Assembly (NCBI GenBank): GCA_903837495.1
Contig: CAILUT010000032.1
Coordinates: forward strand, 1-40,762
DNA: 40,762 nucleotides
Reading direction: 5' to 3'
Origin: an uncultured Flavobacteriales bacterium
Lineage (GTDB): Bacteria; Bacteroidota; Bacteroidia; CAIKAF01
Positions 3-11,889 of this stretch are shown one piece after another (position 1 is the first letter of the stretch; each line of letters begins with the position of its first letter). Under the pieces are notes generated by a model. It did not search any database. It was given only the letters and a program-made list of their open reading frames with translations, and was not told the origin of the DNA. Both the position numbers and the translations under genes were made by a program.

Positions 3-125
3 GGCAAACGGGTGGATTACCTCGGCAGGCCCGTTGTGCTTAAACCGGTGGAACCCGATCAAGATTGGGTTGATCAAATCCCCGTTTCCCGCCACGAAGC
101 CGATTTGGGTGCCGTTCGGACCTAA
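3..125 (+). CDS. C-terminal end of an unidentified protein (5' truncated by window edge)
   Basis: An open frame enters from the left edge and gives 40 residues before TAA at 123-125. The tail is hydrophilic (ends EADLGAVRT) with no recognisable motif, so I assign no family. It lies on the same strand as the envelope-polysaccharide genes that follow, and 74 nt separate its stop from the next likely start. A promoter-like box lies in that gap, so it may belong to a different transcript. The overlapping long frame from 34 to 432 runs into the ligase gene in another frame and was discounted. Confidence is limited because only the end is visible. Confidence 0.45.
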   Translation, partial: GKRVDYLGRPVVLKPVEPDQDWVDQIPVSRHEADLGAVRT

Positions 126-185
126 GCATCGGCCCATGCCCCTTTCCCTTTTTTTCAATTTTAGCCTTGGTTTGGCCTTGCCTTG

Positions 186-193
186 TATCTTTG
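186..193 (+). promoter_or_regulatory. Bacteroidota -7 promoter box TATCTTTG
   Basis: TATCTTTG matches the Bacteroidota -7 consensus TAnnTTTG and ends 6 nt before the ATG at 200. A transcript starting at the usual distance would be leaderless or nearly so. The same arrangement recurs at several other genes in this window. Confidence 0.5.
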
Positions 194-199
194 ATTCCG

Positions 200-1696
200 A
201 TGGCATGGACAAATCCCAAAAATCTTCGGCAGGCCGGCGTTTTAAGCCTGGGGCTTTTGGCTCTGGGCCTCTCTACCTCGCATACCCTCATGTCGGTCGG
301 TTTGGCCTTGGGACTCGTCTTTGCCTTGGCCTTTGCCCTACGCGTGGGTGTTCAACGCCCCAACCTGGTCCACAGCTTGCTGCCAACCTTGTTTGTTTTA
401 ATGGCCATGGCGGCCCTTCCCGCCCTTCCTGACACAGCCGCCCTTCGAGAACTCCGCCTTAAAATCCCCTTTTTGCTGCTGCCCTTGGCTTGGTTTTGGC
501 TAAAACCCCAAAGGACCGATTTAAGGCTTTGGTTGTGGACAACCGCCTTGGGCTGCATTCTTGCTTTTTTGGTTGGGGCTTTTCGTTTTTTCGAGGTTTG
601 GCCGCAGGTGGAACCAAGGCTGTTTTCGCCCTTTATTTCGAACGTCCGCATGGGAACCCTGCTCGCTCTTTGCAGCCTGGGGTTCTTTTATCTGGATCGG
701 GGCTGGCGGCCCTACGTTTTTCTGGCCTTTGCTGTTCTGTATCTCCTTTTCCTTCAAGCCATGACGGCCTTGCTGCTGTCGGCCATTTTGCTGCCAATTT
801 TGTTCCCGCCCCGGGTCCGAATCGCCTCGGCCCTGGCATTGCTGGCTTGCATTTTAGGCCTGGGTTTCTATACCTATACTGCCTATACGCCTGAGCCCGA
901 GCCGGAATTTTATCCCACGTTCAGCGCCGAAGGCCACCCCTACAAATACGATTTTAATGACCCTTCCATTGAAAATGGACATTATGTTTTTCGGTACGTT
1001 TGCCCCTACGAATTGCGCCGAGAATGGGCTAAACGCAGCCAGCTTCACATCGACTCAAACCATGCCCAGGCTTATCCCATCTATCCAACCTTGCTGCGCT
1101 ATCTTAGTTCCCGAGGACTTCGCAAAGATGCCGCCGGGCTGCGTGCCCTTGCCAACCACGAAATTAATGCGATCGAAGCCGGCGTTGCCAATTGCTTGGA
1201 ATTGGAAACACCTGCCATCCGAGCGCGCTGGCATGAATTGGTTCGGGACTTACACTATTATGTAAAAACAGGAAATCCCAACCACAAAAGCCTGCCCATT
1301 CGCATAGAACTTTGGAAAGGTGCCACCCAACTTCTTTGGGCACACCCATGGTTTGGCCTAGGCATCGATTCCCTGCGCCCTGCACTGAAAAACCAACTGC
1401 AGCAGTCCAACAGTCCGCTCAACGAGCAGTACGGCAGTCTGAATCCCCACAATCAATGGCTGTTCTTTGGTCTGACTGCGGGAATTCCCTACTTGGCCAT
1501 CTGGTTTTTCCTTTGGATTGCCCCTTTGTTTTGGTCCTCTTTTCGGAACGCTCCGTATTTTTTGTTTTACTTCGGCCTTATGACTTTGGCCATGTGCACC
1601 GAAGACGTTCTCGACACCCAAGCCGGTGTCGCCCAATTTGTTTGGTTTTGGTTGTTTACCTCAAATTCATCCTTCCGTGAAGGCCTTAAAGAATAG
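200..1696 (+). CDS. O-antigen ligase / Wzy-type polymerase family membrane protein
   Basis: Polytopic membrane protein of about 498 residues. The N-terminal half is a series of hydrophobic helices. A large soluble loop (about residues 235-395, rich in charged and aromatic residues) follows, then further helices. The segment LWKGATQLLWAHPWFGLGID followed by NPHNQWL resembles the conserved C-terminal region of the Wzy_C / O-antigen ligase superfamily, which polymerises or transfers lipid-linked glycans in the periplasmic leaflet. I chose ATG 200 over the upstream in-frame ATG at 167 because TATCTTTG at 186-193 places transcription initiation close to 200. The next gene, a flippase, overlaps its 3' end, as expected for a surface-polysaccharide operon. 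Ligase versus polymerase cannot be decided from sequence alone. Confidence 0.75.
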   Translation: MAWTNPKNLRQAGVLSLGLLALGLSTSHTLMSVGLALGLVFALAFALRVGVQRPNLVHSLLPTLFVLMAMAALPALPDTAALRELRLKIPFLLLPLAWFWLKPQRTDLRLWLWTTALGCILAFLVGAFRFFEVWPQVEPRLFSPFISNVRMGTLLALCSLGFFYLDRGWRPYVFLAFAVLYLLFLQAMTALLLSAILLPILFPPRVRIASALALLACILGLGFYTYTAYTPEPEPEFYPTFSAEGHPYKYDFNDPSIENGHYVFRYVCPYELRREWAKRSQLHIDSNHAQAYPIYPTLLRYLSSRGLRKDAAGLRALANHEINAIEAGVANCLELETPAIRARWHELVRDLHYYVKTGNPNHKSLPIRIELWKGATQLLWAHPWFGLGIDSLRPALKNQLQQSNSPLNEQYGSLNPHNQWLFFGLTAGIPYLAIWFFLWIAPLFWSSFRNAPYFLFYFGLMTLAMCTEDVLDTQAGVAQFVWFWLFTSNSSFREGLKE

Positions 1697-9167: not shown

Positions 9168-9250
9168 TTAGCATCAAGCCGTCCAGCCCTGAAGGGGCGA
9201 AATACCCTAGCACAGGGTGCAGCCCTGTGTTTTCGTTCGTCCGTCCGCGC
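9168..9250 (+). repeat. Double-hairpin repeat, copy A
   Basis: Contains CCCTGAAGGGG (9187-9197, small hairpin) and CACAGGGTGCAGCCCTGTG (9211-9229, 7-bp stem), followed by CGTTCGTCCGTCCGCGCA. It is nearly identical to 9397-9480. From memory, similar CCTGAAGGGGC...AGCACAGGG words occur as dispersed repeats in many environmental genomes; I cannot check that here. Confidence 0.8.
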
Positions 9251-9396: not shown

Positions 9397-9480
9397 TTAG
9401 CATAAAGCCGTCTACCCCTGAAGGGGCCAAATACCCTAGCACAGGGTGTAGCCCTGTTTTTTCGTTCGTCCGTCCGCGCA
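9397..9480 (+). repeat. Double-hairpin repeat, copy B
   Basis: Second copy: CCCTGAAGGGG at 9416-9426 and CACAGGGTGTAGCCCTGTT from 9440, where one closing pair of the larger hairpin is lost. It is followed by the same TTCGTTCGTCCGTCCGCGCA tail as copy A and preceded by the same 'ttagcat.aagccgtc' lead-in. Confidence 0.8.
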
Positions 9481-9720: not shown

Positions 9721-11889
9721 ATGAAATTCATTACTGCCGTTTTGGCTTGGCTAGGTTTGCTGTTAATGCCCCTGCAAGCACAACAAGAGAACATCAATTG
9801 GGCCTTGTCGGTGCAACCCAACGGAAAGGGAAACTATACCCTGATCATGAAGGCAAAAGTGGAAATGGGCTGGCATTTGTATTCCCAAACCAATCCCCCC
9901 AACAAAACCGTTTTTCAGGTTAGCCTGGGCAACCAAAAGCCCAGCGACATGCTGTTCTCAGAGCCCAAACCCAAAAAGGTGAACGACGAATACCTGGGAC
10001 CCACCGCTTTTTTTGAAGAACATGCGGTAACCTTTAAAAAAGACCTGGATTTGTGCGCCCTGCCCCCCAACTCCAAAATCCAGGTTTCGGTGATGGGGCA
10101 AATCTGCACCGAAGCCGACGGCATGTGCTTGCCCTTCGACAAAAGCTATTCCATCTCATTTAGCCCCGACGCCCAGGTTTGCCAAGGCGGAACCGCCGCA
10201 GCCATTCCCAATCCGGCAGAACCCCAGGAACTGGATTTTGATGCAGACGGGGTGGTCGATAGCCTTGATTTATGCCAAGACAAACCCGGTCCCGCCGAAA
10301 ACATGGGCTGCCCCGATTCCGACGGCGACGGAGTCCACGACGGCAAAGACCTTTGTTCGGGCGTTGCTTCTGACCGCGCCGACGGCTGCCCAGAGGGCGG
10401 AACCGGCAAAGCAGTCTGGGGCTCGGGCAACGACCCCGAACGCTTAACCGATGCAGTGCGTGCCCGCGTGCGCGAAGACGGCGGCTGCACCGGTACTGAA
10501 AGCGAAAGTCGCACCCCTTGGGGCATCTTTATTGCTGGGTTCATCGGCGGACTCCTTGCCCTGCTGACTCCTTGCGTGTTCCCCATGGTTCCCATGACCG
10601 TGGCTTTCTTCACCAAACAAAGCTCCTCCCGCGCCAAAGGCATCGCCAACGCCATCACCTATGCGGTATCCATCATCGTTATTTACACCGCTTTGGGATT
10701 CGCCATCACCAAAATATTCGGCTCAGACGCCCTGAACGCCATGGCCACCAGCGCCTTTTGGAATCTGCTCTTCTTCTTCATTTTCGTGATTTTCGCCATT
10801 TCCTTCTTGGGCGCCTTTGAAATTATGCTGCCCAACAAACTCTTGAACGCGGTCGATAAAAAAGCCAACAAAGGAGGATTGCTGGGCATTTTCTTTATGG
10901 CCTTCACCTTGTCGCTGGTCTCCTTCAGCTGCACCGGACCGCTGATTGGAACCTTGTTGGTCGAAGCGGCCAATACGGGCAACAACGTAGCTCCCCTCTT
11001 GGGCATGTTCGGATTTTCGGTGGCCTTGGCCCTGCCTTTCGCCTTGTTCGCCGCCTTCCCCGGCTGGTTGAACACCCTGCCCAAGGCCGGCGGCTGGATG
11101 ACCTCCGTAAAGGTAACCCTGGGCTTATTGGAGTTGGCCTTGGCCCTTAAATTCTTATCGACGGTGGACATGGCCTACCACTGGGACTTCTTGTTCCGCG
11201 AGCGCTTTTTGGCCATTTGGATTGCCATTTTTGGTATGCTCACCTTGTATTTGCTGGGCTTGTTCAAAACGGCCCACGACAGTTCGGGCGAGACCAAGCT
11301 ATCGGTTCCCCGCATCTTTTTGGCGGTATTTTCCTTGAGTTTCACCCTGTATTTGATTCCGGGATTAACCGGAGCTCCCTTGAAGCTGCTGGCAGGCTTG
11401 GCGCCTCCGCCCAACTACACCGAATCGGCCAAACCGCATGCTGGGGGCGGGCATTGCCCCATGGGCTTGGATTGCTTCAACGATCTGGCTCCGGCCATGG
11501 AAGCGGCAAAAGAGCGGCAAAAGCCCATATTTATTGACTTTACGGGCTATGGCTGCACCAATTGCCGGTTGATGGAAGAGAACGTATGGACCAAGGGCAA
11601 AAACATGGAATTGCTCCGCGAAAAATTCGTGGTGGTAAGCCTGTACTGCGACGACAAAAAGCAGATTCCGGCGCATTTGCAAAAAATCTCACCCGTCAGC
11701 GGCAAGCCCATGACCTCGGTAGGCAAGCTCTGGAGCGACTTTGAAATATACCATTTCAAGCAGCAAAGCCAGCCCCTGTACGTCATCATGGACGGCAACG
11801 GCAAATTGCTGAGCGAGACCTACGGCTACAATTCCGATGCAGAATTATTCCAGGAGTGGCTGGAATGCGGGCTAAAGCGGTTCAAATAG
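9721..11889 (+). CDS. dsbD: DsbD-type thiol:disulfide interchange protein with inserted TSP3-like segment
   Basis: 722 residues. It passes electrons from cytoplasmic thioredoxin across the inner membrane to reduce periplasmic disulfides. In order: signal peptide 1-20; DsbD-alpha/DsbC domain about 22-150 (WHLYSQTNPP, DLCALPP, MGQICTEADGMCLPFD); an Asp/Cys-rich insertion about 171-225 (DFDADGVVDSLDLC, DSDGDGVHDGKDLC) that reads as two thrombospondin-type-3 calcium-binding repeats; the transmembrane core from about 265, with TPCVFPMVP at about 282 and FSCTGP at about 400 holding the redox cysteines; and a C-terminal thioredoxin domain with FTGYGCTNC (Cys612, Cys615). The TSP3-like insertion between the alpha domain and the membrane core is unusual. 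ATG 9721 gives a clean signal peptide. Confidence 0.92.
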   Translation: MKFITAVLAWLGLLLMPLQAQQENINWALSVQPNGKGNYTLIMKAKVEMGWHLYSQTNPPNKTVFQVSLGNQKPSDMLFSEPKPKKVNDEYLGPTAFFEEHAVTFKKDLDLCALPPNSKIQVSVMGQICTEADGMCLPFDKSYSISFSPDAQVCQGGTAAAIPNPAEPQELDFDADGVVDSLDLCQDKPGPAENMGCPDSDGDGVHDGKDLCSGVASDRADGCPEGGTGKAVWGSGNDPERLTDAVRARVREDGGCTGTESESRTPWGIFIAGFIGGLLALLTPCVFPMVPMTVAFFTKQSSSRAKGIANAITYAVSIIVIYTALGFAITKIFGSDALNAMATSAFWNLLFFFIFVIFAISFLGAFEIMLPNKLLNAVDKKANKGGLLGIFFMAFTLSLVSFSCTGPLIGTLLVEAANTGNNVAPLLGMFGFSVALALPFALFAAFPGWLNTLPKAGGWMTSVKVTLGLLELALALKFLSTVDMAYHWDFLFRERFLAIWIAIFGMLTLYLLGLFKTAHDSSGETKLSVPRIFLAVFSLSFTLYLIPGLTGAPLKLLAGLAPPPNYTESAKPHAGGGHCPMGLDCFNDLAPAMEAAKERQKPIFIDFTGYGCTNCRLMEENVWTKGKNMELLREKFVVVSLYCDDKKQIPAHLQKISPVSGKPMTSVGKLWSDFEIYHFKQQSQPLYVIMDGNGKLLSETYGYNSDAELFQEWLECGLKRFK

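Follow-up and report, generated by a model that had tools for sequence, protein, structure and literature searches.

Two TSP3 repeats inserted in the periplasmic tether of a DsbD-type protein from an uncultured Flavobacteriales bacterium

The DsbD-type protein encoded in the window, a 40,762-nucleotide stretch of DNA from an uncultured Flavobacteriales bacterium, carries two OmpA-type thrombospondin type 3 (TSP3) repeats in the tether that joins its periplasmic domain (nDsbD) to its membrane core. The repeats are a real, conserved domain insertion and represent a lineage-limited variation on a well-known enzyme. They occupy positions 10231–10395 (residues 171–225) and are in frame within the 722-residue open reading frame (ORF). 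The original prediction had recognized the protein as DsbD and had described two Asp-rich, cysteine-containing, TSP3-like repeats situated after the periplasmic domain and ahead of the membrane core; the domain and structure-database matches given below bear out the identity of the protein, the nature of the insert and its location. The simplest reading, which we think probable, is that a module of the OmpA type acts here as a spacer, loaded with calcium and braced by disulfides, and makes the nDsbD tether longer and stiffer.

Judged by its sequence, the ORF encodes a complete DsbD-type protein (Table 1), in which nDsbD, the tether with the TSP3 insert, the membrane core and the thioredoxin domain follow one another in that order. 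The three Pfam domains all score above their cut-offs (DsbD_N, 32.5 bits against 25; DsbD_TM, 100.3 bits against 27.1; Thioredoxin_7, 41.1 bits against 27), and the thioredoxin domain matches 3f9u with an E-value of 1.6e-27. The cysteine pair of each domain (Cys129 and Cys136, Cys285 and Cys404, Cys612 and Cys615) is invariant in an alignment of 43 rows (the window protein plus 42 others from named genomes), of which only two contain the insert. The NCBIfam DsbD subfamily model NF001419 gives 128.2 bits, below its naming cut-off of 330, and the protein is therefore named DsbD-type by its architecture, that is, by its domains, their order and their cysteines. In Escherichia coli, according to PMC7347389, electrons pass from thioredoxin to the membrane domain of DsbD, then to cDsbD and nDsbD, and from there to DsbC, CcmG and DsbG. 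The window protein resembles the E. coli enzyme as portrayed there in having nDsbD, the membrane core and the thioredoxin domain in the same order with a cysteine pair in each. It differs in that its tether, which runs from nDsbD to the first transmembrane segment (TM1), contains a pair of TSP3 repeats, and in having the extra Cys256 and a CPMGLDC motif.

Table 1. Features of the dsbD gene and its product, with positions in the window
Feature	Positions	Residues	Strand	Remarks
Complete dsbD ORF	9721..11889		+	722 aa
Signal peptide (hydrophobic N terminus)				judged by eye
DsbD_N periplasmic domain, Cys129/Cys136	9823..10146	35-142	+	Pfam, alignment
TSP3 repeat 1, EF-like loop 172-183, Cys185/Cys197	10234..10314	172-198	+	
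TSP3 repeat 2, EF-like loop 199-210, Cys212/Cys223	10315..10392	199-224	+	
Post-insert segment ending at Cys256	10426..10488	236-256	+	
DsbD_TM membrane core, Cys285 and Cys404	10531..11163	271-481	+	Pfam, alignment
CPMGLDC cysteine pair, before thioredoxin domain	11455..11475	579-585	+	
Thioredoxin_7 domain, CTNC (Cys612/Cys615)	11479..11649	587-643	+	Pfam, alignment

A cysteine just before TM1 (Cys256, positions 10486–10488), often followed by glycine, is found in all 16 family members analyzed, with or without the insert, and a CPxxxxC pair precedes the thioredoxin domain in 15 of the 15 parsed family members, G014 having been skipped. The two features co-occur in some other Bacteroidota, for example L020, L022, L038 and L095, in a count that left out G014, L034, L090 and L107 and is loose outside the family because its search stretch sometimes picks up an nDsbD cysteine. 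Lying outside the six usual DsbD cysteines, Cys256 and the CPMGLDC cysteines might pair together. The segment that ends at Cys256 has an equivalent in family members without the insert as well, and its helix at residues 244–253 falls in a stretch of the AlphaFold model with pLDDT below 50. Upstream of dsbD, the intergenic gap holds two copies of a 32-base element (9188–9219 and 9417–9448), each of which is followed by CGTCCGT/GCATTCGT-type simple repeats. Five copies of the element are present in the genome at up to three mismatches, compared with none for the backward control, and it is possibly a REP-type element.

The insert is composed of two units, DFDADGVVDSLD-x-C-x11-C followed by DSDGDGVHDGKD-x-C-x10-C, each of which opens with a 12-residue loop that has aspartates at positions 1, 3, 5 and 12 (D-x-D-x-D-G-x5-D). 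Its four cysteines are residues 185, 197, 212 and 223. When the 55 residues of the insert were compared with a PDB set, they matched the TSP3 array of the OmpA-family protein 5wtl with an E-value of 1.1e-21, and 5wtl was the one distinct sequence matched by this query at E-values up to 1. There were five overlapping placements on the 5wtl repeats with Asp, Gly and Cys in register, which identifies the insert as two genuine TSP3 repeats of the OmpA type. The Pfam TSP_3 model scores residues 170–191 at 20.4 bits (E 4e-4), below its 25-bit detection threshold, and five OmpA-type repeats elsewhere in the same genome reach just 21.4–23.3 bits each with that model. The insert shares with the bacterial OmpA TSP3 array of 5wtl the loop Asp pattern, the cysteine pair in each repeat and the GCPDxDGDG junction; it differs in that its host is a DsbD and not an OmpA-family protein, and in having two repeats where the organism's own OmpA-type ORF has eight, counted by eye. 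In that ORF, which is 865 residues long, the repeats precede a C terminus that by eye is OmpA-like; it and dsbD are the only two in the genome with TSP3 matches at E ≤ 0.001. In TraB, according to PMC12045341, TSP3 repeats connect the barrel and the OmpA-like domain, and the window protein is similar to TraB as described there in using TSP3 as a link between two domains. A weak match to the Myxococcus TraB profile NF033763 (E 7e-8) covers the TSP3 stretch at residues 163–224; it scores 30.9 bits where the cut-off is 700, and nothing outside those residues is matched.

The family was sampled by 16 genomes including that of the window, and the same 16 make up the sample of the order. Two repeats are present in the DsbD tether in 10 of these genomes, one repeat in a single genome (G009) and none in the remaining five (G015, G006, G007, G010 and G011). 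The two-repeat genomes span three genera, with six from g1, two of two from g4 and two of four from g5. The original prediction had raised the question of the same architecture in other Bacteroidota DsbD proteins: it recurs within the family, and none was seen outside it in the genome samples and loci covered below. In a search of 395 genomes of the class, 16 of them from the family, the two-repeat proteins scored 245–287 bits, values that are high by construction because six of these ten proteins went into the query alignment (A2); the one-repeat protein scored 174 bits, and family members without the insert scored 125–149 bits. With up to nine candidates scored per genome, the 379 class genomes outside the family gave no match above 125.6 bits, which was the best score among the 11 of them with a match at E ≤ 1e-33. 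A phylum sample of 395 genomes, again with up to nine candidates scored per genome, gave a best non-self score of 114.6 bits among the matches listed, where the window's own genome is the sole family representative. In both samples the matches were assessed from their scores and from the range that aligned; since insert-free family members themselves reach 125–149 bits and a limited number of candidates was scored, repeats carried by a more divergent DsbD core may have escaped notice.

No repeats were present in 40 loci that were read directly (29 from the phylum sample and 11 from the class sample), some of which are the same genes as loci of an initial homologue set, or in the 15 loci of that initial set from outside the family. 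Among at least 80 loci of named genomes, the pattern was found in one (L037, on a contig as long as that of G001) and was absent from 77, with two (L090 and L107) left unparsed. As far as the searches extend, TSP3-bearing DsbD therefore appears in one family only, and the extra-family linkers that were read agree with the earlier view that such an insert is unusual for DsbD. We found no paper describing a DsbD with a TSP3 insert, in a literature search with most subscription papers outside its coverage.

The eight loop aspartates and four cysteines are invariant in 10 of 10 inserts, compared with 5 of the 42 other columns, a contrast for which the Fisher value of 1.8e-8 is a guide only and overstates the conservation because the rows are related. 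The original prediction had named the conservation of the Asp and Cys residues as a check to make, and these residues are conserved. Within g1, the dN of the insert is lower than that of the 20-codon linker preceding it in every pair computable for both: 0.128 against 0.744 for G000/G002 (nDsbD, 0.130; membrane core, 0.040), 0.119 against 0.755 for G000/G003, 0.111 against 0.783 for G001/G004, 0.024 against 0.083 for G000/G005 and 0.008 against 0.070 for G002/G003. This contrast is limited to g1, because the values go the other way in G008/G012, where the dN of the insert (0.134) exceeds that of the preceding linker (0.056, over 8 codons), and in G013/G014, where it (0.120) exceeds those of nDsbD (0.049) and of the linker after the insert (0.070). 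Omega for the insert is 0.14 in G013/G014, 0.08 in G008/G012 (dS 1.68, near saturation), 0.13 in G002/G003 (three changes) and 0.42 in G000/G005 (two synonymous and three nonsynonymous changes); dS is saturated in the remaining pairs. These values support purifying selection on the insert.

A tree of the DsbD core, built without the tether and with the G014 row covering 23% of the columns, places the insert-bearing proteins in two well supported groups, one of g1 (100/100) and one of g4 with g5 (99/96). The one-repeat protein of G009 and the repeat-free protein of G015, which are sisters, nest inside the g4 and g5 group. The tree gives no firm order at the fork that joins the insert-bearing groups to the insert-free genera, and L026, a long-branched row from another family, lands on the family's side. 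Two changes are needed on this tree to separate two-repeat proteins from the rest, and three for all three states together. The inserts of g1 and of g4 and g5 are about as near to OmpA-type repeats as they are to one another, so that one gain and two gains are indistinguishable; by these comparisons, a single gain with losses and two gains are both possible. The DNA of positions 10150–10520 has no second match in the genome beyond itself, and consequently there is no sign of a recent copy from an OmpA-type gene.

In the mechanism that we propose, the D-x-D-x-D-G-x5-D loop of each repeat would bind calcium and the intra-repeat disulfides 185–197 and 212–223 would lock the repeats. Part of the flexible tether would then be replaced by a short ordered rod, and nDsbD would be held further out and be less free, yet would still meet the thioredoxin domain and the periplasmic clients. 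Electrons would pass via the six usual cysteines only. The proposed calcium binding and disulfide pairing, like the rigidity, are carried over by analogy from OmpA, where calcium binding by TSP3 is reported to be disulfide-dependent (Dai et al. 2017). We infer the rigidity only in this way, because AlphaFold predicted the insert with too little confidence to be of use, the pLDDT being about 30–40 in the full-length prediction (43 rows, the insert in two) and averaging 42.9 for residues 151–266 alone (two rows). The linkers that flank the insert stay low in order, and the tether may consequently still be floppy.

The insert cysteines are most likely structural intra-repeat pairs and not electron relays. 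Three points suggest a structural role: every repeat has one pair, the lone repeat of G009 has its own, and relatives free of repeats still have DsbD cores. The five repeat-free family members have the same DsbD core, so the electron relay need not use the insert cysteines. The original prediction had allowed both redox partners and structural disulfides, and of these the structural disulfides are favored and the redox partners, as a relay by all four cysteines, are disfavored on the same grounds. The repeats are not essential to the protein, because 5 of the 16 family members lack them and one has a single repeat. Calcium-dependent electron transfer would be a putative, possible consequence of the spacer.

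The distance from the second nDsbD cysteine to the TM1 cysteine is 134–153 residues in two-repeat proteins of the family (10 rows), 115 residues in the one-repeat protein (1 row) and 101–107 residues in no-repeat proteins (5 rows). Outside the family, tether length has quartiles of 72 and 107 residues in 84 rows, as given by a pattern count that is inaccurate for some proteins. The same kind of count places the first Cys pair 204–255 residues before the TM1 cysteine in twelve DsbD-type ORFs (L029, L049, L055, L057, L069, L088, L092, L095, L096, L098, L105 and L108), which, going by this length, may contain two nDsbD-type domains in tandem.

The wide variation in tether length outside the family is compatible with another explanation, in which the tether of Bacteroidota DsbD tolerates insertions and the repeats are near-neutral passengers, retained through the need to preserve their own fold and of no benefit to DsbD. 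We regard this as possible, if rather unlikely. Collagen-like G-x-T stretches are present in the DsbD tethers of L027, where they are long, and L181, where they are short, both of one other family, and suggest that the tether readily accepts repeats. The occurrence of one repeat in G009 and of none in its sister G015 would also be expected of a passenger, as would the g4 and g5 inserts, which are not clearly better kept than the adjoining linkers. It is harder to reconcile a passenger with the invariance of all loop aspartates and cysteines across ten genomes and three genera, and with an insert dN in g1 far below that of the preceding linker.

It is less probable still, and in our judgment doubtful, that the insert is a redox-gated calcium switch, in which the relay or a client would reduce the intra-repeat disulfides, calcium would be released and the rod would soften, the reach or activity of the enzyme thereby tracking redox or calcium. 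The disulfide-dependent calcium binding reported for TSP3 in OmpA (Dai et al. 2017) and the position of the module inside a disulfide reductase are consistent with such a putative switch, and the retention of the same core by family members without repeats argues against it. A putative elaboration is similarly doubtful, or marginally more so: the TSP3 disulfides would be reduced, either by the relay of DsbD itself or according to periplasmic redox state, calcium would be freed and the spacer softened, and calcium level and redox state would together determine how far DsbD reaches or what its output is.

We consider it very unlikely that the repeats are a docking module that binds another envelope protein, such as the TSP3-bearing OmpA-type protein, and so positions DsbD. 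Other TSP3-bearing ORFs do exist in family genomes (repeats were pattern-counted in 14 loci), but such ORFs are also encoded by G006, G007, G010 and G015, whose DsbD is repeat-free, and the two are thus not coupled. An assembly or recombination artefact is rejected as having almost no chance, since no point was found in its favor, the DNA of the insert is without a second match in its own genome, and the repeats, far from being absent from all relatives or variable in frame, recur in frame in ten other family genomes, of which nine have two units and the tenth has a single one.

With the insert read as a calcium-loaded spacer, the TSP3 module, known as an inter-domain link in outer-membrane proteins, is here placed in an inner-membrane redox enzyme, and an ordered module of a calcium-binding type would make up part of the connection from nDsbD to the membrane core. 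The relatives with two, one and no repeats represent a natural series for relating the length and stiffness of the tether to function.
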